Below, piece by piece: positions 6,078-28,672 of a DNA stretch of 64,000 nt (the stretch's first letter is position 1; the number at the start of each line of letters is the position of its first letter). The notes under the pieces are model-generated. The model searched no databases. It saw only the letters and a list, made by a program, of their open reading frames with translations, and had not been told where the DNA came from. The translations under genes and the position numbers were made by a program. Source of the stretch: Providencia zhijiangensis (lineage in GTDB: Bacteria > Pseudomonadota > Gammaproteobacteria > Enterobacterales > Enterobacteriaceae); the NCBI RefSeq assembly GCF_030315915.2, contig NZ_CP135990.1:2542001-2606000 (forward strand), in the 5' to 3' direction.

Positions 6078-6441
6078 GGGGCTGATTCTGGATTCGACGG
6101 GATTTGCGAAACCCAAGGTGCATGCCGAGGGGCGGTTGGCCTCGTAAAAAGCCGCAAAAAAATAGTCGCAAACGACGAAAACTACGCACTAGCAGCTTAA
6201 TAACCTGCTTAGAGCCTTCTCTCCCTAGCCTCCGCTCTTAGGACGGGGATCAAGAGAAGTCAAACCCAAAAGAGATCGCGTGGATGCCTTGCCTGGGGTT
6301 GAAGCGTTAAACTTAATCAGGATAGTTTGTTGATGGCGTGTCTGTCCGCAGTTGGCAAATGAAATTAAAGACTAGACTAAGCATGTAGTACCGAGGATGT
6401 AGAAATTTCGGACGCGGGTTCAACTCCCGCCAGCTCCACCA
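6078..6441 (+). ncRNA. ssrA: Transfer-messenger RNA (tmRNA, ssrA)
   Basis: The RNA starts GGGGCTGATTCTGGATTCGA and ends in the T-arm GGTTCAACTCCCGCC followed by AGCTCCACCA, so the tRNA-like ends pair (GGGGCUG with the 3' CAGCUCC). The resume codon GCA is at 6168 and the tag reads ANDENYALAA, stopping at TAA 6198-6200. Its 364-nt length matches the family. Its 3' end is the attachment site of the integrative element that follows. Confidence 0.97.
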
Positions 6442-6552: not shown

Positions 6553-6605
6553 TTAGGCACCTTGATAGGCACCTCGTTAACCTTTATAGTTTTTGAGGTG
6601 CCTAA
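6553..6605. repeat. Cluster of TTAGGCACCT motifs before the integrase (candidate arm sites)
   Basis: TTAGGCACCT occurs at 6553-6562, TAGGCACCT at 6567-6575 on the same strand shifted by one base, and the inverted AGGTGCCTAA at 6596-6605. The same decamer recurs at the far end of the element (31031-31050). The arrangement resembles arm-type binding sites of tyrosine recombinases; this is inferred from position and repetition only. Confidence 0.5.
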
Positions 6606-6624
6606 AAACAATGGAACATCAAAA

Positions 6625-7866
6625 ATGGCAAGACAAACCAAACCCTTATCCGCAAAAGAGATCGACGCAGCAAAACCAAAACAGAGTGATTATGTCCTCT
6701 ATGATGGCGATGGATTAGAACTATTGGTTAAATCCAATGGCAGCAAGTTGTGGTCATTTCGCTATATTCGCCCTCTCACTAAGAAACGAGCTAAAAAGAG
6801 CCTTGGTTCTTACCCTGCCGTCAGTCTTGCTGATGCACGTAGTTACCGCCTTGAAGCAAGAACACTGCTCGCTAAACAGATAGACCCGCAAGATCACCAT
6901 AAAGAGCAAGTTCGTAACACCTTAGAAGCTAAGGCAAATACCTTTCAACTTGTCGCTGAACGTTGGTGGGAAGTGAAGAAATCCACTGTAACAGAAGACT
7001 ACGGTAATGATATATGGCGTTCACTTGAACGAGATGTGTTCCCTGCCATTGGTGACATCAGCGTGACCGATATCAAAGCCCATATATTGGTTCAAGCAAT
7101 ACAGCCCGTTCAAGCTAGAGGTGCGCTAGAAACGGTTCGGCGCCTATGTCAGCGTATTAACGAAGTGATGATCTATGCTCAAAATACTGGCTTAATTGAT
7201 GCCGTACCAAGTATCAACATTGGTAAGGCTTTTGAAAAACCCAAGAAAAAGAATATGCCAAGTATTCCCCCTGATCAGCTACCAAAGCTCATGCAGACAA
7301 TGCGTACAGCTAGTATTAGCCTATCTACTCGATGCCTGTTCATGTGGCAGCTACTCACCATCTCGCGCCCTGCTGAAGCCACTGAAGCCCGTTGGGATGA
7401 AATCAACTTTGAGACCAAGGAATGGAAGATACCTGCAGCTAGAATGAAGATGAACCGTGAACATACCGTTCCGTTATCTGAAGCGGCTTTAGCTATCTTA
7501 GAGCTCATGAAACCACTCAGCCATAATCGTGAGTTTATCTTTCCTAGCCGTATCAAGCCGACTCAACCGATGAATAGCCAAACCGTCAATGCTGCATTAA
7601 AACGCGCTGGATTCGGTGGTGTACTGGTCTCACACGGCCTACGCTCAATTGCTAGTACTGCACTCAATGAACAAGGCTTCCCACCTGATGTTATCGAAGC
7701 CGCCCTCGCCCATGTTGATAAAAACGAAGTTAGACGCGCATACAACCGTAGTGACTACCTAGAGCAAAGACGCCCTATGATGCAATGGTGGGCGGATTTT
7801 ATTGAGGAAGCAGATAGAGGAAGTATTATTGAAGGCGGGATAAGAGGGATATCGCTAGTTGGGTAA
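6625..7866 (+). CDS. P4-type tyrosine integrase
   Basis: A 413-residue P4/CP4-57-family integrase. The N-terminal DUF4102-type arm-binding domain (KEIDAAKPKQSDYVLYDGDG, then KLWSFRYIRP) is followed by a SAM-like core-binding domain (~95-190) and the catalytic domain. Active-site residues visible are the Arg in LTISRPAEATEARW, HGLRS (His-x-x-Arg), the His in AALAHVD and the Tyr in AYNRSDYLEQR. The ATG at 6625 with GGAA upstream is chosen because MARQTKPLSAKEID is the usual family N-terminus; the frame upstream overlaps the candidate arm sites. Its position next to ssrA matches the known site preference of CP4-57 integrase. Confidence 0.93.
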   Translation: MARQTKPLSAKEIDAAKPKQSDYVLYDGDGLELLVKSNGSKLWSFRYIRPLTKKRAKKSLGSYPAVSLADARSYRLEARTLLAKQIDPQDHHKEQVRNTLEAKANTFQLVAERWWEVKKSTVTEDYGNDIWRSLERDVFPAIGDISVTDIKAHILVQAIQPVQARGALETVRRLCQRINEVMIYAQNTGLIDAVPSINIGKAFEKPKKKNMPSIPPDQLPKLMQTMRTASISLSTRCLFMWQLLTISRPAEATEARWDEINFETKEWKIPAARMKMNREHTVPLSEAALAILELMKPLSHNREFIFPSRIKPTQPMNSQTVNAALKRAGFGGVLVSHGLRSIASTALNEQGFPPDVIEAALAHVDKNEVRRAYNRSDYLEQRRPMMQWWADFIEEADRGSIIEGGIRGISLVG

Positions 7867-8341: not shown

Positions 8342-10522
8342 TTAAATTTCAGTCATCATCATATTATAGTGTTCTATGTCCCCAGTCTCTTCAAACACTC
8401 GTTTAAACATATCGATATACACGCCTGCTGATGCCTCTTCTTGAAGACGAATGTTACGACTGTCTGCGTGTGAATTGCGGTTGATAAAACGATAAAATGC
8501 ATTAAACCTAGGTTCACGATTATTCTCTGCTAGAGTATTCAGTACACTGTAGAGGCGCTCATTTTTTCCTGAAAAACTAAAATAATGTTCAAGAATTTGG
8601 CGCATCACATTTGGAATAATCACGCCAGAAGGTGTGTCGTTACTAGCCTTACGCAATACATACCAGAGTGCTTGATAGTCATTGAGTAGTTCCTTCTCTG
8701 TAATAGTACTGACACTGCTGAATTGACCTTTAGTAATACGATACAGTTGCCAATCTGCTGGCTTCCTACCTACTGGTCGACCTCCGCTTGAGAGTAGAAG
8801 CTCCTGAAAGAAGAACAGACTATGTGTGAGTATTATCACCTTCCCGGCGTAACGAGGCTTAATAATTTCATGCTGAATTAACGCAGCTACTTCGAAAATA
8901 TAATTCTGAGATAAGCTGGATATTGGGTCGTCAATGACGATAAGACGAGGCCTATTATCCGATTGATTGCGACTGTTCCTGCCTTTACAAGCTTCGATAA
9001 AGTACAGGAATGCAATTAATGTTTTTTCACCTTCACTAAGGCTCTGAAATACCGGACAATCAGAGCTCTCACCCACTCTACTGAGCCGGTAAGACTCAAC
9101 TCCCTCATCACATCGAACGATACTGAAACTATTTATGCCTAATGAAGTTAACGCATTATTAATGTTCTGCACGGTGCTGTCTATATTGACAGTTTCTGTG
9201 TATTTCTGTGCAATTTCTTTTTCAGTATTATCTATGTTTTTCTTAAGGTCTTCTGACTCAGATTCCTGAGCTCGCCTAGTTTCTTGTAATACAGTCAGTT
9301 TAGTACGCTGTTGCTCAATTGCTTCTGAGGAAAGGTGACGTATATGTGCAAAAACACGGTTTGTCAGGGACGTACGCTCTACTGTATAGTTCTCTGCGAG
9401 GCGGTTGTTTTCATTGATTTCCCCATTTAGTTCTGAGAGTGCTTGCTGTAAGATTGTCATTTCATCAACGGTGCAACGCAGGCTAATACGTATTGAAGGT
9501 TCTATAAGCTTCTGTGAGATTGCATTCTGGTTTGATTGAGCTAATTGCTCAAATTCAGATAACCGCACGAGTATCGGTGATTCAGCACCAACTATTGGGC
9601 AGTTGTTCAGATTCTCTCTCAGACCGGGAAATAAGTTTATCCACTCTGAATAACGTTGCTCAAGCTTTTGCAGCGAACTCATAGCGGTCTCCCATGAACG
9701 ATCAAATAACGCAGTAATTTCCTTTTGGAGATGTTTACCATCTATAGATGACTGACAGAATGGGCAAACATCCCCCTCAATCCATTCTGCTCCTCGTGCA
9801 ATCCAGTCGCTATTGTTGAGGCGCCTTATAGCAGCAGCAAGAACACTGTCACCCGATGGAACTAGTGGCTCGGCTAACAAGGTAAGTTCCTCTTCTGTAA
9901 ATATGAATGGAGGAAACTCATTAATAGGTTGAACACGGCTACCTTTACTATTTTCCAGACGCTTTAGTTCCTCGCACAACGCCGTTGTACTGGTTATGAT
10001 AGTATCAGAGGATGACATGATTTTTTGGTAAAGGTTTTCAGTACGTTTTGCTCCCTCCATCAGAACAGCCGCAGTTGAAGACCTTACCTCAGCAGAACTG
10101 CTAAAAATAAGAGCTGCGCAATCGCTACGGGCCTCTTGCTGCTGAGAATCATTTTCTTGCTGAGAGAGGTTATTGGCCTGCAGTGCAACACGCAACTTGT
10201 TCACATGTGTTTCTAATACGTCTATTTCATCAGCAATAACGCTATTTTCTTCATTAAGTGTAAAGATACCGGGCTGAACAGCCTTACCGTGGAAAAGATC
10301 TTCAACAAACTGATGATTAAAGACGGTATATTGCATATCTAGTGGAGGGTGAAGAGTGCATTGTTCGTATTCATCATTATCTTGCTGGTAAAAAAATCCA
10401 GATATCGTCGATTTACCTGCCCCATTCTGACCATAAATTAAAGTGACATAGCTGCTAATATCCATCTGGGCCGCTTCATCATAGGAATAACTGCGCACTC
10501 CGCGCAGAGAAAGTATGCTCAT
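8342..10522 (-). CDS. RloC/PrrC-like ATPase-anticodon nuclease (AAA_13 family)
   Basis: The 726-residue protein starts with an ABC/SMC-like nucleotide-binding half (Walker A YGQNGAGKST, residues 30-39). It then has long coiled coils interrupted by a CPFC motif (C253, C256), like the Rad50/RloC zinc hook. The second ATPase half follows, with signature LSEGEKT (~490) and Walker B LIVIDDPISSLS (~525). The C-terminal domain contains R641-x3-E645 and His685 in RNSHAD, matching the Arg-Glu-His arrangement of PrrC/RloC tRNA anticodon nucleases. Such nucleases are usually linked to type I restriction genes and cut tRNA when restriction is compromised, and this gene lies directly after hsdR. Nuclease activity is inferred. 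Confidence 0.72.
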   Translation of the reverse strand: MSILSLRGVRSYSYDEAAQMDISSYVTLIYGQNGAGKSTISGFFYQQDNDEYEQCTLHPPLDMQYTVFNHQFVEDLFHGKAVQPGIFTLNEENSVIADEIDVLETHVNKLRVALQANNLSQQENDSQQQEARSDCAALIFSSSAEVRSSTAAVLMEGAKRTENLYQKIMSSSDTIITSTTALCEELKRLENSKGSRVQPINEFPPFIFTEEELTLLAEPLVPSGDSVLAAAIRRLNNSDWIARGAEWIEGDVCPFCQSSIDGKHLQKEITALFDRSWETAMSSLQKLEQRYSEWINLFPGLRENLNNCPIVGAESPILVRLSEFEQLAQSNQNAISQKLIEPSIRISLRCTVDEMTILQQALSELNGEINENNRLAENYTVERTSLTNRVFAHIRHLSSEAIEQQRTKLTVLQETRRAQESESEDLKKNIDNTEKEIAQKYTETVNIDSTVQNINNALTSLGINSFSIVRCDEGVESYRLSRVGESSDCPVFQSLSEGEKTLIAFLYFIEACKGRNSRNQSDNRPRLIVIDDPISSLSQNYIFEVAALIQHEIIKPRYAGKVIILTHSLFFFQELLLSSGGRPVGRKPADWQLYRITKGQFSSVSTITEKELLNDYQALWYVLRKASNDTPSGVIIPNVMRQILEHYFSFSGKNERLYSVLNTLAENNREPRFNAFYRFINRNSHADSRNIRLQEEASAGVYIDMFKRVFEETGDIEHYNMMMTEI

Positions 10523-10814
10523 CGTTCAACCCCTGTGCTTTGAATATGTCAAACATCATGTTGCTTAGAAGAAAGTCAACAGACTATCTGTACAGATAGT
10601 CTGTTGATAGTCTGTTGACCGGATGATGATAACCATATCTGCGAAATTTGAATAACACTAGAGTTAGAAAGAGAAATATAAGTCAGGACAAACCAACTCT
10701 AACGAAAAAACGCAATAAAAACTATCTCATTGAATATTTAAATATTTTCACGGTAAAAATATAACAATACACTACCAGCCTGAACTTATTCCCAAGGTAG
10801 TGAATTATCATATG
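10523..10814. other. hsdR to nuclease intergenic region
   Basis: AT-rich 292-bp gap on the minus-strand path between the hsdR stop and the nuclease start. Apart from the 32-bp palindrome at 10576-10607 and a repeat of one half of it, I see no gene or further structure. A separate promoter for the nuclease probably lies here. Confidence 0.5.
10576..10607. promoter_or_regulatory. Perfect 32-bp palindrome upstream of the nuclease gene
   Basis: Two perfect 16-base arms centred between 10591 and 10592 (core ATCTGTACAGAT). A direct copy of the outer right half (ATAGTCTGTTGA) follows immediately up to about 10618. It lies 54-85 bases upstream of the nuclease ATG, where an operator or an mRNA hairpin would act. 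No T-run follows on either strand, so it is not a standard terminator. Confidence 0.6.
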
Positions 10815-13800
10815 TTAATGTTGAGCTTCACTCGCCTTTCCTAATCCCTTCATTAACACATCAAACATCAATCCAGCAAAGCCTTTCGCTATCGCTTCGT
10901 TAGACAGGAGTTTCATTGCCATCTCATTATGAACATCCATACTCTCAATAATGGCATTATTGATTGACTCAGGGAATTGACCGAGCATGGCTTGTTCTTT
11001 TGTATTACTGCGCAGTTGATCCATAACGACTTCATTTTCTGAAATTTTGCCTGCAATGGTATTTGCGTAATTAAGCATATCATTTTCAGATAAACCATCT
11101 TCAATAAACAAGTCGTTCATTCGCTGGATGATCTCGTTAAGCAATTCAGTTTTGGGATCTTTCGGCACAGCACCTGAGCCTTCTTTTGCCGCAGGCAAAT
11201 AGGGCTTTGGTTCTTCTCCAATCATAAGGCCAAGCTGTAAATCGGCTTCGCGTTGCTCGTGAAGACGGTAGTGCGTCATCACCACATCTGATAAATCAAT
11301 TTCGTCTTCCACAACATCGAGGCGCAGCAACGGATGGAGATATTTAGCGAAAATACTCAGCTTTTCTAATTCATAATCATCAAAATTGACAATCTGAGAC
11401 GTAAATTCGTAGTAGCGATAGAACGAGATGAGGTCTTTCTTGAACACCTCAAGAATGTCTCTCGCCTCTTTCGCGTGCTTTACGCTATTTTCAGCATACT
11501 TAATTTTTTTGTCGTTCTTCTCAATTTTTGCCTTAGACAGCTCCGATTGTGCAGCTCGAAGAACTTGCGACGCTTCTTTGTAACGGACAGAAAAGCGGTC
11601 AACAGCTGGCTTACACAAATTAGCGAGTTTGGCTTGATTTGCTTGCTTGTTGTTATACGTTTCAACAAACATCTCAACCTCTCTCCATTGATAAATACCA
11701 ACTTTGTCGAGCTTTTTCATTAGTTCATAGACAATGTTTGGATCAGAGACATCAGCTAGTTCTGCCGTTTGGAAATATACTTTAAACTCTGCCAATATAT
11801 CTTCAGGATCATTAACGAAGTCGAGCACAAAGGTTTTTTCCTTACCTTTATAAGTGCGGTTTAACCTAGAAAGTGTCTGAATACACTCAACGCCTTTTAA
11901 TGGCTTATCGACATACATCGCCACTAATTTCGGCTGGTCAAAACCTGTTTGGAATTTATTCGCCACCAGCATGACCTGATAATCTGAGGTATCGAATGCT
12001 TTACGCATATCGCGACCACGGAGATTAGGGTTCATATTATTTTCAGTGAAAGCATGATCAGGGAAATCAGGATCATTCACTTCTCCAGAAAATGCCACCA
12101 TTGCATTAACGTTAGTGTAGCCCTTTTCTTGCACATATTTTTCAAAAGCCAATTTGTAGCGTACAGCCTCTAAGCGGCTACTAGTGACGACCATTGCTTT
12201 GGCTTCACCACCTAACAAATACTTAATTTTATCATTGAAATGTTCAATGATAGTTTCCACTTTTTGAGCAATGTTGTAAGGGTGAAAGCGAACCCATTTT
12301 GCCATTTTCGATGCGGCTTTTTTGCTATCTACCTCATGATCTAAATCCGGATTTTTATGCGCTAATTGGTAAGCCACTCGGTAACTGGTGTAATTTTGCA
12401 GAACATCGAGAATAAAACCTTCTTCAATCGCTTGGCGCATTGAGTAGACATGAAAAGGCTGGGGTTTATTGGTATCGCTTGCAGGCTCATAAGGATTGGG
12501 CCTACGACCAAACAACTCTAGTGTTTTTGCCTTCGGTGTTGCTGTAAAAGCAAAGTAGCTGAGTTTATTCGAGCCTTTACGAGCTTCAAGTGATAAACGC
12601 AGCATATCTTCACTGTCTAGCTCTTCATCGCCATCTAGCTGCTCAGCCATAAGGACTTCACGCAGTTTACGAGCCGTTGTCCCTGTCTGGCTGGAGTGCG
12701 CTTCGTCAGCAATCACAGCGTAACTTCGGCCCGCAAGCGTTGAGTCTTGGCGTATCGCCTCTAGTACGTGAGGAAAAGTTTGAATGGTCACGATAATAAT
12801 AGAGGTGCTAGCCTTCAACTCCCCAGCTAATTGGCTGGATTTAGAGCCTTGAGCCTCTTCGCGGTTAACACGAGCAATCATCCCTTCGCTGTGGTCAAAC
12901 TGATAAATAGTATCCTGTAGCTGACTGTCTAACACCGTTCTGTCGGTGATCACAATAACAGAATCAAATACCTTATCCCCTGCTTGCTTATCAAGCTCAG
13001 GGTGACCGATATCATAGTGTTTTGATGCTAATTGGTGAGATAACCACGCAATCGAGTTTGATTTACCTGAACCCGCACTGTGTTGAATGAGGTATTTATG
13101 GCCTGTACCTTCATGGTCTACGGTTCGGAGTAACTTAGAAACTACCGACCACTGATGGTAACGAGGAAAGATCAGCGTTTCTTTTTGACTAATTGAACCA
13201 TCTAAATTTTCAACATCTTTGACTTCAAGGTGAATATATCGCCCAAGGATAAGCAGTAAATTATCTTTTTGGAAAATTTCATTCCAAAGATAGGATGTCG
13301 CATAGCTGCCATCTTCGGGGATATCGTTCCCCTTACCACCTTCACTTGTTCCTTGGTCAAACGGTAAGAAATACGTATTTTTGCCATTCAAATGCGTGGT
13401 CATTGCCACGTTGTACTGACTAACCGCAAAGTGAACTAATGCCCCCCGTTTGAAGGTCAATAACGGTTCAGACTTATGTGTCTTCTTGTCTTTCGGTAGC
13501 CTGTCCTTCATATATTGCACTTTGGCATTATCAATTGACTGTTTAAACTCTGACTTAAGCTCACAAGTGGCAACAGCTATCCCATTCACGAATAGCGTTA
13601 AATCTAATCGACCGTCATAACCATTGGGTGAGTAAACCAGTTCTGGCACAACACGTAGAATATTTTGCTGATAACGAACCGCTGCCGTTGGGTTGAGCTC
13701 GTGATCTGGTTTAAAGCTGCAAAGATTAAACTTAGCACCTCGATTATTGACCTTGTTTCGCAATACCCAGAGTGTGCCTTCTTTTTTCAGTTCTTGCTCT

Positions 13801-14018
13801 AATGATTTGAGTAGCGCATCCGCCGTTGTATTTGGAAAGTGCTGCGCGAGTTTATCCCATTGCTCTGGCTGTGTAGCTTTCACAAACGTGATAACGTCTT
13901 CAGGATAAAGAGCCAACTCTTTGTTGTACTTGCTCGATTCGCCTAATAACCAACCGTGAGACAGCATTTGTTCAAGGATGTCGTTTTGGAATATTTTTTC
14001 TTGTGCTATATCAGACAT
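10815..14018 (-). CDS. hsdR: Type I restriction enzyme, restriction/translocase subunit HsdR
   Basis: A 1067-residue HsdR. The N-terminal PD-(D/E)xK nuclease shows D139 (GRLDLTLFVNG) and E153-x-K155 (CELKS). The SF2 motor carries Walker A HSAGSGKSNSIAW (~313-325), DEAH box in IADEAHSSQTG, motif III FTATPKAKT and motif VI QTLSRLNRTYKGKEKTFVLDF. A helical C-terminal part assembles on the methylase. It translocates and cuts DNA unmodified at the site specified by HsdS. The ATG at 14018 is preferred over 14039 because MSDIAQEKIFQ fits the family, and it overlaps the upstream gene stop by eight bases, implying translational coupling. It is the last gene of a five-gene operon. Confidence 0.95.
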   Translation of the reverse strand: MSDIAQEKIFQNDILEQMLSHGWLLGESSKYNKELALYPEDVITFVKATQPEQWDKLAQHFPNTTADALLKSLEQELKKEGTLWVLRNKVNNRGAKFNLCSFKPDHELNPTAAVRYQQNILRVVPELVYSPNGYDGRLDLTLFVNGIAVATCELKSEFKQSIDNAKVQYMKDRLPKDKKTHKSEPLLTFKRGALVHFAVSQYNVAMTTHLNGKNTYFLPFDQGTSEGGKGNDIPEDGSYATSYLWNEIFQKDNLLLILGRYIHLEVKDVENLDGSISQKETLIFPRYHQWSVVSKLLRTVDHEGTGHKYLIQHSAGSGKSNSIAWLSHQLASKHYDIGHPELDKQAGDKVFDSVIVITDRTVLDSQLQDTIYQFDHSEGMIARVNREEAQGSKSSQLAGELKASTSIIIVTIQTFPHVLEAIRQDSTLAGRSYAVIADEAHSSQTGTTARKLREVLMAEQLDGDEELDSEDMLRLSLEARKGSNKLSYFAFTATPKAKTLELFGRRPNPYEPASDTNKPQPFHVYSMRQAIEEGFILDVLQNYTSYRVAYQLAHKNPDLDHEVDSKKAASKMAKWVRFHPYNIAQKVETIIEHFNDKIKYLLGGEAKAMVVTSSRLEAVRYKLAFEKYVQEKGYTNVNAMVAFSGEVNDPDFPDHAFTENNMNPNLRGRDMRKAFDTSDYQVMLVANKFQTGFDQPKLVAMYVDKPLKGVECIQTLSRLNRTYKGKEKTFVLDFVNDPEDILAEFKVYFQTAELADVSDPNIVYELMKKLDKVGIYQWREVEMFVETYNNKQANQAKLANLCKPAVDRFSVRYKEASQVLRAAQSELSKAKIEKNDKKIKYAENSVKHAKEARDILEVFKKDLISFYRYYEFTSQIVNFDDYELEKLSIFAKYLHPLLRLDVVEDEIDLSDVVMTHYRLHEQREADLQLGLMIGEEPKPYLPAAKEGSGAVPKDPKTELLNEIIQRMNDLFIEDGLSENDMLNYANTIAGKISENEVVMDQLRSNTKEQAMLGQFPESINNAIIESMDVHNEMAMKLLSNEAIAKGFAGLMFDVLMKGLGKASEAQH

Positions 14019-14424
14019 TACAAGCACCCTTATCATCATCGCATCGATGCGAAATCCAAAGTTCGTTCAGTCGTATAGTTGGTAAATCACCATTATTATA
14101 AAATTTTATTTGTGAAAGATAGAAGCATAAACGAGCACTCGCTTCTCTAATTGACTGCGTGAGTAATTCTGTATCATTCGTCTTTGAAATTAAAGATATT
14201 AATGCTCGGGCTTCTTGCTCCGCTTTACTCGATAACTTTATTAGCAAATCACAGTCAATTACCTGAGAAATCGTAGTTCCACCAATTTTCAGTGGTTCAT
14301 TCAACCTTTTTTGGGCTTTGTTTAAAGCTTTATCTGTAACCTTTGATGAGTTATATGCTTGAATCATTGACGAAATAGCACTTAGCGAACTAACAAAAAG
14401 ATTAGCTATAGGTAGTAAATCCAT
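14011..14424 (-). CDS. Unknown 137-residue protein inside the type I restriction operon
   Basis: I do not recognise a family. The protein opens with a hydrophobic/amphipathic helix (DLLPIANLFVSSLSAISSMI), then a Lys-rich helical part and a region beginning IGGTTISQVIDCDLLIKLSS. Its helical middle ends in SARLCFYLSQIKFYNNGDLP, and the C-terminus has a Cys/His-containing tail (SHRCDDDKGAC). Its start overlaps the preceding stop (TAATG) and its stop overlaps the hsdR start by eight bases, so it is made in step with restriction subunits. It could be an accessory or control factor, or a membrane-associated partner of the DUF262 protein; that is inference. Confidence 0.85.
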   Translation of the reverse strand: MDLLPIANLFVSSLSAISSMIQAYNSSKVTDKALNKAQKRLNEPLKIGGTTISQVIDCDLLIKLSSKAEQEARALISLISKTNDTELLTQSIREASARLCFYLSQIKFYNNGDLPTIRLNELWISHRCDDDKGACNV

Positions 14425-16271
14425 TAGTTAGCTTCCTCCAAACACCATATTTGTTCCGCTATCTGGCGATACAACTCACATCGCTCTTTGATATCCGCTA
14501 CTTTCATTTCCGGATGAGCTTTAAACGCTAAGCCATTGCAAGAAAAAGCCTTATTAAAGTTAGGATTATTTTCATATGCTAATGGGTGTAGTGACTTAAC
14601 CAGTAAGTTTTCTTTGATATAGTGAGGAAGCTTATCTACATAAGTTTTATCGCTGTATGATTGATTTGTTCCTCTCTGTAACAGTACAAGTGCTCCAATA
14701 CTATTGCGTGTATTACGAAAATCATTTTGTTGCTCAAACTCGTCTTTATGATCATCGAAGTTGTTAGCCCATAAATGCTCAATCTCAAAAGGCTTACTTT
14801 TTACTGCATGATAATAAGTAGAAAAATTCGTATTCTCCCCTGCTAGACCATCTACATAACCTGATAAGCGTGAGAGTAAATATTTAACAAAACGACCATT
14901 TTGACCATGCAGGCGGAACCCCTCGAAGCCATCCCATGTCCCATCCATCTCATTAAGTTTTTTATCAAAGATAGCAAGTAGTTCACTGTATTCTTTGTTA
15001 CGTATTTCTTTAACCAGATTGTACATCGTGTAACGAATCGAACTCGCTGAGAAGTTACGAAAGTTAATCGCTCTGCGAACACAGAAAATATCAATGTATT
15101 TCGCGACAAGGTTCATTTTTTTATTGGCTAATTCAATGGAGTCTGTCGTTTTTAATGGCGCAAGCATTAAAGGATTACTTAGAGAGGTTGCTATACCCCA
15201 TTGATAGATGTAGTGAATCGAGCTAAGTTCAGGAATGATCTTTTCTTCCGCCTGACGAAGACGTTTATATGCATTCACGTAGTACTTAAATTCGGTGTTA
15301 ATAAACACATCAAACTCATTTTCACCAGCTTCAGCAAGGCCCATTCTAGAAAGATTATCTCTTACCCAATTATGAAAACGAGTACCTATTTTTTCGAAGT
15401 CTTCATTTAGTGAGCCAGCCTTACTTTGGCGGATTGATTCAGCGTATTTTGCTCTTAGCCATGCTTGCATAAATCGCTGGTCTTCTTCCTTTTCAAAAAC
15501 TTTGAGATCAATGATCGTTTGTTTCCAAAAATCATTCGCCTTTTGTCGCTTTTTATCGTCGCGATACTTAGATAACAAGAAGCCTTTCAACATTTCAGTT
15601 GGGGTTAAATTTAGGCCCCTGTCATTCATTGTCTCAAAAATGGTATAAGCATTATCATCGCTATATGCCACTATCTCAACAAGAACAACTAACTCCTTAA
15701 GCCAATCAATAAATAGAGGTAAGACCGTCTCATCAATACGATCTATGGGGAACGCATCACTGATATTTTGATAACGAGCAACCATATTAACCGTTGAAGC
15801 ATCAGCATCTTCAGGTGGCGCATACTCTCCTTTATTAAATAAAGCATCAAGACAAGCGATACGCTCTGGCACATCTATATTGAATGATTTTTGTCCGAAT
15901 TTCTCAGAGAAAATCATACCTGAAACAGCTTCATCTAAGCCAAGTTCTTGTTGTTTATTATTCAAGTAAATCAAAAATAACGTTAGCGATGTTAAGCGTT
16001 GTTGACCATCAATAATACTCCGCTTGCCTGCTTTTTCACTGAGGACAAAAGGACCTAAATAGTAACTGTTGTAATCAGCCACATCTTGACGTTGGTGTTT
16101 TGGGTCGTAGTTGTCCAAAAATGCATTACACAAGTCGGTAATGAGCTGCTCTATATGAGTTTGTTCCCAGCTATATTCACGCTGATAATAATCAACGGTA
16201 TATTTTTTATTATCGAGTACTTCTAAGATAGAGCGATTATTTGCATCAATTTTGTTTTCAAAACGACTCAT
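14424..16271 (-). CDS. DUF262/DUF1524 (GmrSD-like) protein embedded in the type I restriction operon
   Basis: The 615-residue protein carries the DUF262 (ParB/Srx-like NTPase) motifs YQREYSW (29-35) and IIDGQQRLTSL (86-96). Its C-terminal half holds a DUF1524-type HNH-like segment with FEIEHLWANN near residue 500 followed by NTRNSIGALVLL. This two-domain architecture is that of GmrSD-type type IV restriction enzymes that cut modified phage DNA. Here it sits between hsdS and hsdR, with 1-base TAATG overlaps on both sides. The ATG at 16271 has AAGGA eight bases upstream; an earlier start at 16295 would overlap hsdS more. Catalytic activity and target are inferred. Confidence 0.85.
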   Translation of the reverse strand: MSRFENKIDANNRSILEVLDNKKYTVDYYQREYSWEQTHIEQLITDLCNAFLDNYDPKHQRQDVADYNSYYLGPFVLSEKAGKRSIIDGQQRLTSLTLFLIYLNNKQQELGLDEAVSGMIFSEKFGQKSFNIDVPERIACLDALFNKGEYAPPEDADASTVNMVARYQNISDAFPIDRIDETVLPLFIDWLKELVVLVEIVAYSDDNAYTIFETMNDRGLNLTPTEMLKGFLLSKYRDDKKRQKANDFWKQTIIDLKVFEKEEDQRFMQAWLRAKYAESIRQSKAGSLNEDFEKIGTRFHNWVRDNLSRMGLAEAGENEFDVFINTEFKYYVNAYKRLRQAEEKIIPELSSIHYIYQWGIATSLSNPLMLAPLKTTDSIELANKKMNLVAKYIDIFCVRRAINFRNFSASSIRYTMYNLVKEIRNKEYSELLAIFDKKLNEMDGTWDGFEGFRLHGQNGRFVKYLLSRLSGYVDGLAGENTNFSTYYHAVKSKPFEIEHLWANNFDDHKDEFEQQNDFRNTRNSIGALVLLQRGTNQSYSDKTYVDKLPHYIKENLLVKSLHPLAYENNPNFNKAFSCNGLAFKAHPEMKVADIKERCELYRQIAEQIWCLEEAN

Positions 16272-17617
16272 TATTGAATTCCTTTTGGTTGCCAATCACG
16301 CACATCAATTTTGCCTGTTACTGCGGCTGAAATAAGAGCTGTTTTGCGTTCTTTTAATAACTCAATTGTGTTCATTACTTGTGCTTCAAGCCGCAAAAAC
16401 TTAGCTTCATTTTTTTTAATATAGTTAACTATCTCTATTTGTTCTTTTAACTGAGGAAGTATAGCGTTAATTGCAAGATAATCTTCTTTTGCTATATTTT
16501 GCATGCTACTACTAGCACCTTCTGCAGATAACGATATCTGATTTCTAAAACCTTCAACTGTCATAAAGTATGCTAAGAATTCAGCTTCTATATCAAAACT
16601 CTTATTAAAATTTGTTTGCCATAATCGATCAGGCAGGTAAATATTATCAATATCAACATTTACTAATGCACTAGCGCCAACCAATTCAGGAGTATTCATG
16701 CGACTTATGATGATTGCCCCTTTTCTGATAGGACACTTAACTCTTGGCAAGTCTTCTTGTAAAACCGTTTTATTTTCTTCTACACGAAAGCGTCTTGTAT
16801 AAACACAGCTTGTTTTTAATACACCAATTTCACCCGTTTTGGCTGGTGTATCCGCAGCATTGACGCTACATCCAGACTCTAATGATTGAATGAGATGCTT
16901 GAGTTTCAATACAACCCAATGCTCTGGCACTTCACCCAACCATTCCACACCTGAATCCTTCATTGGTACATCTGGGTTAAGCCCTTTGGTCACTGCGTGA
17001 GAAATTACTGCTTGACGTTTTTCTTTTAACAACTCAACCAGTTTTTCTTGCTTGGTGATTAGAGTGTCAACTTTGGCGGTTTCGCGATCGAGGAAGTTAG
17101 CGATTTTCTTTTGTTCTTCCATTGAAGGGCAAGGCATTTCAATATTGCTAAACGTCTCAGTTCTTACTACTTTCCTTAGCCCTGTATAAAAAGGCTTTAA
17201 ACCTTTAAATGTGTCAATATGGTAAAAATAATAATAGGCATAAGTTGGATAGCAACTATCAAAACAACCATATACATTATATGCACCAGTAATCATCCCA
17301 TTTAGTGGTGAGATACCTATAGTTCTTGGTGTTTCATCTATATCAAACAGGCAAAAAACCAGATCATTTTCATCGACTTTTTGATAAGTATCAAAGCTCT
17401 CAGGTATCTTTCCTTCACCTGAAGATATATCTCGAGGAATAATACCTTTTAGTGTTAGTGATAACAGCTGATAGTTAGATGATTTACTTCCAACAAGGCT
17501 TCTCTTCAAAAAAAACATACGCTTTGTTCTCTCAACATTCCAATTGGAAGGAATCTCCTGAAGCCACTCAACCCCTGAATCCTTATACTCAGGATAAGCC
17601 TTATAACGCCCCGCCAT
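16271..17617 (-). CDS. hsdS: Type I restriction-modification specificity subunit HsdS
   Basis: The 448-residue protein has the two-fold repeat typical of HsdS. DSGVEWLQEIPSNW (~13-26) and DSGVEWLGEVPEHW (~223-236) open two target-recognition domains. Each is closed by a conserved helix: KLVELLKEKRQAVISHAVTKG in the middle and IELLKERKTALISAAVTGKIDV at the end. The two domains recognise the two halves of a bipartite DNA sequence; their low mutual similarity implies two different half-sites. The start overlaps the hsdM stop (TAATG), and the stop overlaps the next start in the same way. Confidence 0.95.
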   Translation of the reverse strand: MAGRYKAYPEYKDSGVEWLQEIPSNWNVERTKRMFFLKRSLVGSKSSNYQLLSLTLKGIIPRDISSGEGKIPESFDTYQKVDENDLVFCLFDIDETPRTIGISPLNGMITGAYNVYGCFDSCYPTYAYYYFYHIDTFKGLKPFYTGLRKVVRTETFSNIEMPCPSMEEQKKIANFLDRETAKVDTLITKQEKLVELLKEKRQAVISHAVTKGLNPDVPMKDSGVEWLGEVPEHWVVLKLKHLIQSLESGCSVNAADTPAKTGEIGVLKTSCVYTRRFRVEENKTVLQEDLPRVKCPIRKGAIIISRMNTPELVGASALVNVDIDNIYLPDRLWQTNFNKSFDIEAEFLAYFMTVEGFRNQISLSAEGASSSMQNIAKEDYLAINAILPQLKEQIEIVNYIKKNEAKFLRLEAQVMNTIELLKERKTALISAAVTGKIDVRDWQPKGIQ

Positions 17618-19656
17618 TATGAATGTACCTCATTAAGCAATTGCATAATTTCTGCTGAGATCGCATCCAAATCAGCATCAATCTCGGCTAGTGCTCTCGG
17701 TGGTTCATAAACATAGAAATGGCGGTTAAATGGGATTTCATATCCAACAATACCCACTTCACCATCTTTCGGGTCTAGTTTACTTTCATCAATCCAAGCA
17801 TCCGGTACGTGTGGCAGAACTTCTCGAGCAAAGTAATCGGCAATATTTTCAGTGAGTGGTACGTTTTCGTTATCACGCAAATCAGGATTAGATTCAATCT
17901 GGCCTTTGGCTTTGCACACTTCAGCTTCATCGTCGTGCTCACCAAGGTGTTTGACAATCAGTTTTAACTGCACAGCACTTAGTTTAACATCCACCAGCTT
18001 GCTTTTTAGCTGCTTGAGGAATTTATCACGAGACAAATATTTTTCGGAGTCAAAGGAAGCGAGAGCATCAAGAATAGCTTGTTGGCTGATTTCATCCATT
18101 TTCAGCCAAACACTATCTGCTTGCAGAGCTTCAAGGCGTATAGCATCTTTCGGGTAAATGGCTAATTTCAGTGGGCGTTCAACCGTAATTCGACGATAGC
18201 CAAACGCTTTGTAATCAAAGATTTTACTAAAATCGTTTTCTACAAACTGACCGTATGTTTGCACGATTGTCTCAATCGCTTCTTCTGTTAGTTCTTTTCG
18301 CTTACTACCCAGTGATTTACGCATGACAGCATAAAACACGTTTTCATCATCGCCTTCAACTTCACCACCACCACTACGCCCGCGCCCACCTGTTTTCGCT
18401 CGCTCTTTTGACGCATTAATTAATTGAACCTTACCTTTGCGAGCAGTTGGCTTATGGTTAGATAACACCCAAATATAAGTGGCAATACCCGTGTTGTAGA
18501 ACATATCAGTAGGCAACGCCACAATTGCTTCGAGTAGGTCATTCTCCAGAACATAACGTCTAATTTCACTCTCACCGCTACCCGCTCCGCCAGTAAAAAG
18601 TGGGGAGCCATTTAGGATGATACCAATACGTGAACCACCTTCACTTTCAGGGCGCATTTTACTAATTAGGTGCATCAAAAACAGTAATGAACCATCAGAC
18701 ACGCGAGGTAAGCCCGCACCAAAGCGGCCTTCAAAACCTTTTTGGGTATGCTCATCAGTGATGTATTTTTGGATTTTCTTCCAATCCACACCAAAAGGTG
18801 GATTAGATAGCATATAGTCAAACTTATCACTGCGGAGCTGGTCATTCGATAACGTATTGCCCAGTTTGATATTATCGACCTTCTGCCCCTTAATCAGCAT
18901 ATCTGCTTTACAGATTGCGTATGACTCTGGGTTCAGCTCTTGACCGAATGCTGATAGAGAGGCTTTCTCGTTGAGTTTGTGGACATACTCCATACCAGAC
19001 GATAAGAAGCCACCGGTTCCTGCTGTAGGGTCATAGATTGAGCGTACCAAGCCTGAACTGGTTAACTCTTCTTCGTTAGTGAAAAGCAATGACGTTGTCA
19101 GCTCAACAATATCCCTTGGGGTAAAGTGTTCCCCTGCGGTTTCATTTGAGCTTTCGGCAAAGCGTCGGATAAGCTCTTCAAACACTAAACCCATACCATA
19201 GTTGCTAATGGCGTCAGGGTGAAGATCTGTGGTCGCAAAACGTTTTGCAACTTTATAAAGCAGGTCGGCTTCTTCCAATTTATCGATGGTATTAAAAAAG
19301 TCGAAATACTCAAAAATCTCACGGGCATTTGGGCTAAATGATTGAATATAATTCTGAAGATTATTCGCTACACCAGTTTCACCAAGACGGTTCAAATCCA
19401 TTTTTGAGGTGTTATAAAAGCTTAACTGCGCAGCATGGGTAAGTAGTTTGTCCTGCGCTTCAATCGGCATTGATTTTACTGCATCGTATTTAGCCAGAAC
19501 ATCAGCCTTTGTAGCAGCAAGGACACACTCTAAGCGCCTTAGCAAGGTGAAAGGGAGAATGATGCGTCCGTATTGAGATTGCTTGAAGTCGCCACGTAAC
19601 AGGTCAGCTACTGACCATAGAAATGCCGCTGTTGAAGAGAAATTGTTATTAGTCAT
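17617..19656 (-). CDS. hsdM: Type I restriction-modification DNA methyltransferase subunit HsdM
   Basis: A 679-residue N6-adenine methyltransferase. A helical HsdM N-terminal domain (~1-150) precedes the SAM-binding motif [10 protein letters not shown] (~209-218) and the catalytic NPPF (~285-288, NPPFGVDW). The [17 protein letters not shown] loop and long C-terminal region make it larger than EcoKI HsdM (about 530 residues). With HsdS it methylates the recognition sequence and protects host DNA. The ATG at 19656 is chosen; a GTG four codons earlier is possible, and neither has a strong ribosome binding site. It is the first gene of the operon. Confidence 0.95.
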
Positions 19657-24115: not shown

Positions 24116-25003
24116 ATGAAAAAATTATCGGGCTATGCCCTTATTCGTCGCCATCTGCGACGCTACCCTCGTTCACTGCGTCAAACCTTATTAAAAGAAC
24201 TCAATCAGCTTGTTACCTATCAGCCTGTGATTGGCATTATGGGAAAAACAGGTGTTGGGAAATCCAGTCTGTGTAATGCCTTATTTCGCAGTCAAGTTTG
24301 TGCTGTCAATGCTATTGAAGCTTGTACTCGGCAGCCCCAACAGGTCAAATTGCGCTTTGGACGACACACACTAACGCTAGTTGATTTACCGGGTGTCGGA
24401 GAAAGCCAACAGCGTGATGAGGAGTATCGTGAGCTCTATCGTGAGTGGATACCTAAACTCGATATGGTGCTTTGGGTACTCAAAGCTGATGACCGTGCTT
24501 TCTCCATTGAAGAGCAGTTTTATCAAACAGTATTCACGGAGTATAACGGAGAGCTACCAGCTATTACTTGGATTTTGAATCAAGTTGATAAGATAGAGCC
24601 TGTCGAGCAGTGGCACTGGGCATCCGCACAGCCTTCAAAACAGCAGCAAGCTCATATCACATTGAAACGACATGTTATCGCCAAACAAATGCATATCTCT
24701 GCAGATACCATCATTCCGATATCTGTTAAAGGCCGATATCATCTCCCCCAATTGGTGGAGGCGATTATTACTCGTCTCCCAAAGCAAGCACTTAGTCCCT
24801 TAATCCCACATCTACAAAATATCTATCAGACCACAACGGTTATCAATCATGCGCGTAGCTCTTTCGGTGATACGGTCGTAGATATCATTGAGCGCGTGAT
24901 TGATTTCGCTCCACTTCCTCAAGTCGCTCGGCACGCCCTCAAATCAACAACTCATCATATTGCTAAAGCAGCGCGCTCTGTCTGGTCATTTTTCTTTAGT
25001 TAA
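24116..25003 (+). CDS. YfjP/YeeP-type GTPase
   Basis: A 295-residue Era-like GTPase as found in CP4-57-type prophages (YfjP, YkfA, YeeP). G1 GKTGVGKSS (43-51), G3 DLPGVGES (90-97) and G4 NQVDK (155-159) are intact. A basic N-terminus (RRHLRRYPRSLRQ) and a C-terminal amphipathic helix follow the G domain (VRHALKSTTHHIAKAARSVWSFFFS-like end), suggesting membrane contact. The cellular role of the family is unknown. GAGG is upstream and an intrinsic terminator follows, so it appears to be its own transcription unit. Confidence 0.85.
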   Translation: MKKLSGYALIRRHLRRYPRSLRQTLLKELNQLVTYQPVIGIMGKTGVGKSSLCNALFRSQVCAVNAIEACTRQPQQVKLRFGRHTLTLVDLPGVGESQQRDEEYRELYREWIPKLDMVLWVLKADDRAFSIEEQFYQTVFTEYNGELPAITWILNQVDKIEPVEQWHWASAQPSKQQQAHITLKRHVIAKQMHISADTIIPISVKGRYHLPQLVEAIITRLPKQALSPLIPHLQNIYQTTTVINHARSSFGDTVVDIIERVIDFAPLPQVARHALKSTTHHIAKAARSVWSFFFS

Positions 25004-27907: not shown

Positions 27908-28672
27908 TTAGTCAAATATTTTACCCCAAAGGTACTTAACACCTAAACCAACTCCAGTGGCAACGGCCACACCAACAATGACTGGTGCAGCACCTACAGC
28001 ACTTACTCCTGTTAATGCTGACAACGCGACGGTTGTTCCCCCCGAAGCTGCAACCCCACTCGTGATCCCAGCCGCACTTCCTCCAACCACACCTGCTAAA
28101 TTTGAAGCTGTAGACGTTGCCGCAAAAGAGCTAATGGCACTTGATGCTGTGGTTGAAGCAACGGTTGAATTTATTATTGTTGGTGCTGTGGTTCTTAGTG
28201 CGCTAGTACTAGCTGCATTCACAACGGTTTTCAGCAGACCAGCACCAGCTTGTGCTCCGTTTAAATATTTATATATTGTGTATCCATTGTAAGAAACATT
28301 GACAACATTAACTGTTGCTTTTACAACGGACTGTACCTGCTTACTTTCCTTTGTTCCAGTTACGCACCAGTTGGCGAAGTGTTCACAATTATTTGTAGCT
28401 ACATTGTAATCATCTTCACCTATTTTTTGTCTAGCTCTGTTAACTATTTCTTCTGGAGTGTAGATTGAGTATTCATGTTGAACAACGCCAATAAGTTGCT
28501 TCTCGCCTGAAAATTCAATAAGCGTTGTTTCTTGAATGCCGTCTTTAGAAAGACCATGTGAAAGGCCTGCATAGTGAACTACTTTATCACCGCCAATATA
28601 AATACCGTGGTGTGTGTAGCCTGTTCGTGGAGAATAAATATGATCTCCTACTTTCAGATTTAATGTGCCCAT
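27908..28672 (-). CDS. LRAT-domain (NlpC/P60-like) protein with Gly/Ala-rich C-terminus
   Basis: A 254-residue protein. Residues 1-110 form a lecithin-retinol-acyltransferase-type fold: GDHIYSPRTGYTHHGIYIGG supplies the catalytic His (H22 region) and TNNCEHFANWC supplies the catalytic Cys (C96) in the diagnostic NCEHF motif. Bacterial relatives are thiol acyltransferases or phospholipases acting on lipids. Residues ~115-250 are rich in Ala, Gly, Ser and Thr with glycine-zipper character (GVVGGSAAGITSGVAASGG, GVAVATGVGLGVKYLWG), which suits membrane insertion or assembly. There is no signal peptide. Partner genes are not obvious; an effector or phage-defence role is possible but unproven. Confidence 0.8.
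   Translation of the reverse strand: MGTLNLKVGDHIYSPRTGYTHHGIYIGGDKVVHYAGLSHGLSKDGIQETTLIEFSGEKQLIGVVQHEYSIYTPEEIVNRARQKIGEDDYNVATNNCEHFANWCVTGTKESKQVQSVVKATVNVVNVSYNGYTIYKYLNGAQAGAGLLKTVVNAASTSALRTTAPTIINSTVASTTASSAISSFAATSTASNLAGVVGGSAAGITSGVAASGGTTVALSALTGVSAVGAAPVIVGVAVATGVGLGVKYLWGKIFD

Follow-up and report, generated by a model that had tools for sequence, protein, structure and literature searches.

A Providencia type I restriction operon with a GmrSD-type gene and a small additional gene between hsdS and hsdR

Introduction

Does a gene that lies inside a restriction-modification operon belong to the enzyme whose genes surround it, or does it only travel with them? In type I systems, HsdM2S methylates DNA and, together with HsdR, cuts DNA that does not carry the methylation of the host. 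In a stretch of 64,000 bp of Providencia zhijiangensis (contig NZ_CP135990.1, positions 2,542,001 to 2,606,000; this whole stretch is hereafter the window, and its own numbering is used), the genes of such an enzyme are separated, between hsdS and hsdR, by a gene coding for a DUF262/DUF1524 (GmrSD-type) protein and by a gene coding for a protein of 137 amino acid residues, here called X. The initial annotation took both genes as built into the operon as one unit, regarded the start-stop overlaps as a sign of their coupling, and proposed that a single operon could counter two kinds of phage or, alternatively, that the DUF262 protein could act as a modulator of the type I enzyme. We consider it probable (about 0.72) that the locus is a type I operon with a cargo slot between hsdS and hsdR, that an autonomous GmrSD-type nuclease occupies this slot and that X is a late, single and independent acquisition.

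Results

The operon and its junctions

Reading of the open reading frames (ORFs) of the window gave five intact genes on the minus strand, in the order hsdM (17617..19656), hsdS (16271..17617), DUF262/DUF1524 (14424..16271), X (14011..14424) and hsdR (10815..14018). The modification subunit HsdM has the Pfam domains N6_Mtase (3e-58) and HsdM_N (3.4e-25) and matches the PADLOC family MTase_I (1.8e-285), the specificity subunit HsdS has Methylase_S in two stretches, and the restriction and translocation subunit HsdR has HSDR_N, SWI2_SNF2, ResIII and T1R_D3-like domains. With these expected domains, adjacent and intact, the three proteins are a type I restriction-modification set of predicted activity.

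Direct reading of the junctions confirmed the annotated genes, their order and their overlaps of 1, 1, 1 and 8 bases. The motif TAATG forms the one-base overlaps of hsdM with hsdS (at 17617), of hsdS with the DUF262 gene (at 16271) and of the DUF262 gene with X (at 14424). At the last junction, X stops at 14011 and hsdR starts with the ATG at 14018, the stop codon of X being a TGA within ATGTCTGAT, the opening codons of hsdR. A mechanical ORF list gives longer forms of three genes (hsdM from GTG 19668, which is in frame with ATG 19656; the DUF262 gene from TTG 16295; hsdR from ATG 14039). The start of hsdR was set at ATG 14018, as in the related operons of the genus described below, because in these its frame is closed by a TAA two codons upstream of ATGTCTGAT.

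The DUF262 and DUF1524 domains are joined in one protein of 615 residues (GmrSD_N, 1.2e-32 and 114.1 bits with a cut-off of 33.2; GmrSD_C, 4.2e-9 and 36.9 bits with a cut-off of 23). According to the motif definitions for GmrSD proteins (PMC11411939; PMC4619093), the QR, DGQQR and FxxxN motifs and the EH..N..N nuclease residues are all present, and each of the 13 relatives in the alignment keeps QR, DGQQR, FxxxN and EH. In PADLOC the protein comes nearest to the families HEC-06 (the best, 1.1e-37), Orf5 and SspE. Among sequences of solved structures the best match is 9jfl, a DUF262 protein of 596 residues (3.5e-12), and SspE gives a weak, partial match (0.003).

The same operon in the genus

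The DUF262 protein was searched in all 24 genomes of the genus sample and found a match in eight, with 90-99% identity in three besides that of the window. These three congeneric loci (L016, L017 and L018) have the gene order of the window, with X absent between the DUF262 gene and hsdR; their identity to the window is 96-97% for hsdM, 36-44% for hsdS, 99, 90 and 90%, respectively, for the DUF262 protein and 98% for hsdR. Since hsdR at 98-100% identity is confined to exactly these four genomes, the DUF262 gene is present in four of four such operons, which supports its being a stable part of the operon within the genus. The strong divergence of hsdS would be expected under exchange of target specificity.

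In the three congeners the DUF262 gene joins hsdR directly, at TAATGTCTGAT (TAATG), whereas the window has at this place an extra segment of 406 bp (14019..14424, minus strand) with a TAATG copy at each edge. The GGAGG that precedes hsdR in the congeners precedes X in the window, where an AAGGG inside the end of X stands 8 bases before the ATG of hsdR; GGAGG and AAGGG are putative ribosome-binding sites of X and hsdR. The simplest history would be a single gain of X in the lineage of the window, the alternative being separate losses elsewhere.

Ratios of nonsynonymous to synonymous substitution rates (dN/dS), calculated for the six pairs of the four genomes, were 0.012-0.054 for the DUF262 gene (0.012-0.053 between the window and the three congeners), 0.050-0.069 for hsdM and 0.026-0.042 for hsdR. 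The DUF262 gene is therefore a conserved member of the operon in the genus, being present in congeners that lack X and under purifying selection. The pattern of the operon exceeds chance: every one of its proteins has homologues, and DUF262, hsdM and hsdR are under purifying selection. The DUF262 gene falls into two allele groups. Its synonymous divergence (dS) is 0.23 within one (window and L016), 0.37 within the other (L017 and L018) and 0.92-1.32 across the two, and hsdM and hsdR have values of 0.24-0.37, a pattern that may reflect exchange of the slot content by recombination between conserved ends. A search of 5,426 Escherichia coli genomes for near matches gave none to the operon.

Gene X and its homologues

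X was described from the start as a protein without a known family, and this held: it has no Pfam or PADLOC match, which includes the AAA_13/PrrC domain. Counting the genome of the window each time, X was found in 2 of 394 genomes of the order, 2 of 398 of the phylum, 1 of 274 of the class and 1 of 24 of the genus, in overlapping samples of one genome per species that do not amount to a census. The single protein found no homologue in the genome contigs, where an alignment of two rows matched only Neptunicella marina (G183), and a profile search of Alteromonadaceae, the family of this species, gave relatives in 5 of 295 genomes. The five homologues are 40-46% identical to X, and 32 positions are invariant across the six members, including LW.S..C near the C-terminus.

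None of the homologues lies in a comparable setting. The next-door genes code for a LysE transporter on one side and a protein without a family on the other in G183, an AcrB-type pump in G899 and a 95% identical one in G881 (the other sides being occupied by 7TMR-DISM and HTH_3 proteins), RapA and PhoH in G928, and an OmpA-like protein and a sodium:alanine symporter in G780. When the 18-kb stretches around the five homologues were searched with tblastn for hsdM, hsdS, DUF262, hsdR, AAA_13, the integrase and two other proteins of the island described below, only X itself was recovered. We read X as a rare gene, solitary in the other genomes, that was inserted into the operon a single time.

The homologues end at SHRC, SNRC, SNQC or SHGC, or one residue further on, and X of the window extends beyond this point by DDDKGACNV, a tail that arises at the junction with hsdR and whose last seven residues have a pLDDT below 50. 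At the N-terminus of each of the six proteins, 22-25 residues in a row carry no charge. The AlphaFold model of X is all-helical, with a mean pLDDT of 86.4 (from two sequences) or 83.6 (from six). The family gave only scattered weak matches of single members in Pfam and PHROGs, and the best match among Protein Data Bank (PDB) sequences had an E value of 0.12. Foldseek searches with two models in the PDB, and in viral models, gave nothing at E<=0.001, and the best VIA-align Z score, 7.4, is within the range common for helical bundles. Plasmids (searched also with the G183 homologue), phages and viral contigs (alignments of two and of six rows) gave no match to X.

The interval between hsdS and hsdR in distant operons

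HsdR was also searched in 394 genomes of the order, with about two candidates scored per genome, so that second or third operons may have been missed. Forty places scored above 440 bits. Apart from that of the window and from G227:C60, which was left out as a fragment at the beginning of its contig, all were fetched, 38 in number. Four of these are cut by a contig end (L072, L074, L085 and L093), which leaves 34 operons with both hsdS and hsdR visible, in which the gene order was taken from our own ORF script and not from annotation (antisense ORFs, in L067 and one in L061, were excluded as cargo; L075, a doubtful case because of ORF calling in high G+C DNA, was counted; the junction sequences of L076 and L077 are almost identical; two ORFs make up hsdR in L057 and L071).

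Cargo lies between hsdS and hsdR in 16 of the 34 operons and is lacking in 18. It varies widely: by Pfam we identified RhuM (L057 and L089), the YhcG nuclease (L064), DUF4268 (L083, with near-identical proteins recognized by sequence in L084, L087 and L088), Schlafen-AlbA_2 (L078), DUF3800 (L061), DUF5655 in one of four cargo genes (L058) and a protein with GmrSD_N only, together with AAA_21 and a third gene (L071). Pairs of DUF262 proteins are present in L084 and L086 by Pfam and in L088 by BLAST, and the cargo proteins of L056, L068 and L080 have no Pfam family. In two of the excluded loci, a RhuM-like protein (by likeness to that of L057) and Fic precede hsdR (L072 and L085, respectively). 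DUF262-type cargo is thus found in 4 of the 34, with a best local match to the window protein of 38%, and in L062, L069 and L092 further DUF262 relatives (24-28%) stand immediately next to the operon. Since the distant cargo varies and includes no close relative of the window protein, the slot is general and the window-type DUF262 gene is a resident of its genus version. Homologous operons, one half of what the initial annotation had named as decisive against it, mostly lack X; DUF262-type cargo is mostly lacking outside the genus only.

X was absent from the 38 distant loci, and among the six-frame peptides of 41 hsdR loci the window gave the sole match. Because X is absent from these loci and from the three congeneric operons, a conserved partnership with DUF262 or HsdR was rejected. 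The idea that two additional genes are built into the operon is supported for the DUF262 gene and not supported for X, and neither is a unit of the two, since congeners carry the former without the latter and the homologues of X have no relatives of the operon genes nearby.

Start-stop overlaps are no better guide. Where the script placed hsdS directly before hsdR, TAATG or ATGA stands at the hsdS stop in 10 of 17 operons, and in eight of these ten the ATG is in the frame of hsdR (as the called start in six, 51 bases inside the called ORF in two). Overlaps were rejected as a sign of functional integration, because 8 of 17 operons without cargo show them.

Some cargo of other loci may be recorded here in its own right. 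YhcG also lies between hsdM and hsdS in L059. In L058 (7813-9826) the interval from hsdS to hsdR is taken up by a run of four small genes, one of which codes for a 137-residue protein with no Pfam match, no match to X and, by eye, a C-terminal hydrophobic stretch. In L056 (9426-9998) and L068 (7248-8000), the cargo directly before hsdR has apparent transmembrane segments by eye.

Relatives of the DUF262 protein outside the operon

In a plasmid collection of incomplete annotation, 510 records match the DUF262 protein and 33 cover at least 80% of it, of which we inspected eight. In four of the eight (Pantoea, 55%; Rhodococcus, 42%; Lacticaseibacillus, 36%; E. coli, 29%) no hsd gene was annotated or detected in the stretch; a Synechocystis relative lies at the edge of its record, and the other three are considered in the Discussion. 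These contexts favour, and do not prove, an enzyme able to act alone that has also been recruited into larger clusters. They lend no support to the proposal that the protein modulates the type I enzyme.

The island and the neighbouring genes

The operon is within an island beside the tmRNA gene (6078-6441) and a tyrosine integrase gene (6562-7866). In L016 the integrase is 99% identical and a tmRNA gene occupies the matching position, and this pair of genes is the entry point of the island, common to both genomes; the stretches fetched for L017 and L018 contained no tmRNA gene. A search of the window for an attachment site that would place the distal end of the island found no further exact occurrence of the final 12 or more bases of the tmRNA gene.

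After hsdR, a terminator-like hairpin with a stem of 14 pairs (10576..10607, minus strand) is a possible end of the operon, in a window where such hairpins are overall not above chance (9 found, 7.0 expected, standard deviation 2.4). The promoter scan was likewise not above chance (32 found, 26.3 expected, standard deviation 5.1). The gene that follows the hairpin, and that we take as outside the operon, codes for an AAA_13 ATPase (8342..10522, minus strand; Pfam AAA_13, 5e-100; PADLOC PDC-S06, 1.5e-233, 775.8 bits). It is a neighbouring defence candidate, and L016 has a different gene, of 495 residues, at its place. Elsewhere in the window are a dynamin/MMR_HSR1-type GTPase gene and an LRAT-domain gene (24116-25003 and 27908-28672, respectively).

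Discussion

A probable cargo slot and its two occupants

By analogy with its relatives, the one-protein GmrSD-type (type IV) nuclease that occupies the slot would sense a modified base with its DUF262 domain, and nucleotide binding or hydrolysis would license the His-Me nuclease of the DUF1524 domain. The type I and the GmrSD-type enzymes would then cover unmodified and cytosine-modified phages separately, and a single transcript would keep them together and co-expressed, which makes physical coupling unnecessary. X would have entered as a free-standing small gene at the start-stop junction of DUF262 and hsdR, leaving the DUF262 stop in place; it would have taken over the old GGAGG, and hsdR would have gained the new AAGGG, presumably in use as a ribosome-binding site. 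For X itself we tentatively regard as most likely that it is an independent, membrane-associating helical protein which hitchhikes on the transcription of the operon and is a subunit of neither nuclease.

Several observations weigh against parts of this interpretation. Three of the eight inspected plasmid relatives do adjoin type I-like genes, so that such partners are also frequent: that of Deinococcus (35%) comes after hsdM-hsdS, with RelE, HigA, Fic and an HsdR-like match further on, and two of Aeromonas (A. caviae and A. media; 59% and 36%) precede a large SNF2/HsdR-like helicase gene, which in the A. caviae record is unannotated. In Vibrio cholerae, where island VPI-2 carries two GmrSD-like genes (TgvAB) inside a type I operon (VC1765-69), tgvAB without the rest of the cluster is reported to give 10- to 100-fold less protection against several phages than the complete cluster (PMC11411939); stoichiometry is the reason put forward there, but an interplay is possible. 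Membrane association of X rests on an N-terminal stretch of borderline hydropathy (Kyte-Doolittle maxima of 1.6-1.9 over 19 residues), and the model packs this region as one helix of an all-helical protein. X has also kept its open frame, and its insertion left hsdR open with a plausible ribosome site, for which reason some use of X inside the operon is possible.

Alternative explanations

The overlap with the DUF262 gene could be read in favour of a type IV system made of two proteins, as TgvAB is, with X as a needed partner or as a modifier of the substrate range, especially as TgvA and TgvB are both required in V. cholerae (PMC11411939) and as pairs of DUF262 proteins fill this slot in three distant operons (L084, L086 and L088). 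A DUF262 match is missing from X, however, the window protein already holds both domains, DUF262 proteins of 99, 90 and 90% identity persist without X in three congeners and no DUF262 relative lies near the homologues of X, all of which makes such a system improbable. We give as little credence to a regulation of the type I enzyme by the DUF262 protein or X, for instance by sensing of its state. Their position between hsdS and hsdR does recall PrrC, which is embedded in a type I locus, held by EcoPrrI and activated when EcoPrrI is inhibited (PMC12707154). Against this, the DUF262 protein has relatives in places that lack type I genes, protection in V. cholerae is independent of the nuclease activity of HsdR (PMC11411939), and X has no AAA_13/PrrC match.

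Two further alternatives concern X only. It may be non-functional debris or a neutral passenger whose frame has yet to decay, as its single copy among the genus genomes and the tail made by the junction, with its low model confidence at the end, would suggest; this differs from the preferred interpretation on X alone and is the least unlikely of the alternatives, but the full-length frame keeps the 32 invariant positions of a six-member family, LW.S..C included. It is also conceivable, as the most speculative proposal made here, that X founds a small family of helical proteins with a hidden membrane-inserting N-terminal helix which kill or arrest cells: taken up at the translational joint of the type IV and type I genes and made with both nucleases, X would fire when either is engaged or inhibited, as a third, abortive layer of defence. 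The lead for this proposal is a likeness to BELL and HeLo domains that we take from the style of the sequence: like them, X is small, predicted to be all-helical and has a hydrophobic N-terminal helix. BELL has been described as a small all-helical domain with such a helix (PMC7889193). X gave no match to them in Pfam, in PDB sequences or by Foldseek (E<=0.001, a result with which a shared fold is compatible), and a search for an NLR partner or an amyloid motif was not made.

The interpretation we prefer, a slot with an autonomous nuclease and a late X, makes the locus a clean comparative case of a known habit of type I operons, which is to hold further defence genes in the interval from hsdS to hsdR. 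What the slot does can be tested directly in the four operons of the genus, in which hsdM and hsdR are almost alike, the DUF262 alleles form two groups and hsdS is divergent; one of them has an extra gene at a stop-start joint with no reading frame broken. If X is functional, it stands for an uncharacterised family; if it is not, the locus captures a moment in the accumulation of cargo by such operons.

Comparison with known systems

TgvAB is a close parallel, as a five-gene type I operon broken by two additional genes, including one for a DUF262+DUF1524 protein. It restricts phages with modified cytosine, Tevenvirinae in E. coli, and HsdR of V. cholerae restricts unmethylated plasmid DNA (PMC11411939); by analogy, the same logic of phage modification would be expected in the window operon. 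The proposal that one operon acts on both kinds of phage is accordingly plausible, given the intact motifs and this precedent, and as an idea it is known in kind. Compared by description, the systems differ in that TgvA and TgvB each have a DUF262 domain, and the window has a single DUF262+DUF1524 protein followed by X; two adjacent DUF262 proteins are not found here, since X has no Pfam match and the congeners have no X.

RloF of Campylobacter jejuni, a DUF262 protein, is encoded between hsdS and hsdR (Miller et al. 2005, cited in PMC4619093 and PMC11411939), the very position of the window gene, again as compared by description; no X-like gene is described for RloF in the available text of these two papers. 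HEC-06, the best PADLOC family of the window protein (in a match split into three stretches), comprises GmrSD-like proteins embedded in Hma clusters, where they are said to work independently (PMC11411939); the host cluster in the window is type I instead of Hma. BrxU, SspE and the DUF262 proteins of solved structure share the DUF262+DUF1524 architecture of the window protein; BrxU acts next to BREX, and SspE together with genes for phosphorothioate modification, partners for which the genome of the window was not searched. Type I domains are the most frequent defence neighbours of GmrSD (PMC4619093). As these reports, TgvAB and RloF precede the present case, dual defence from one locus is already established in kind, and the type I operon with its embedded one-protein GmrSD-type gene is a well-supported member of this known kind, to which the window adds the rare gene X.

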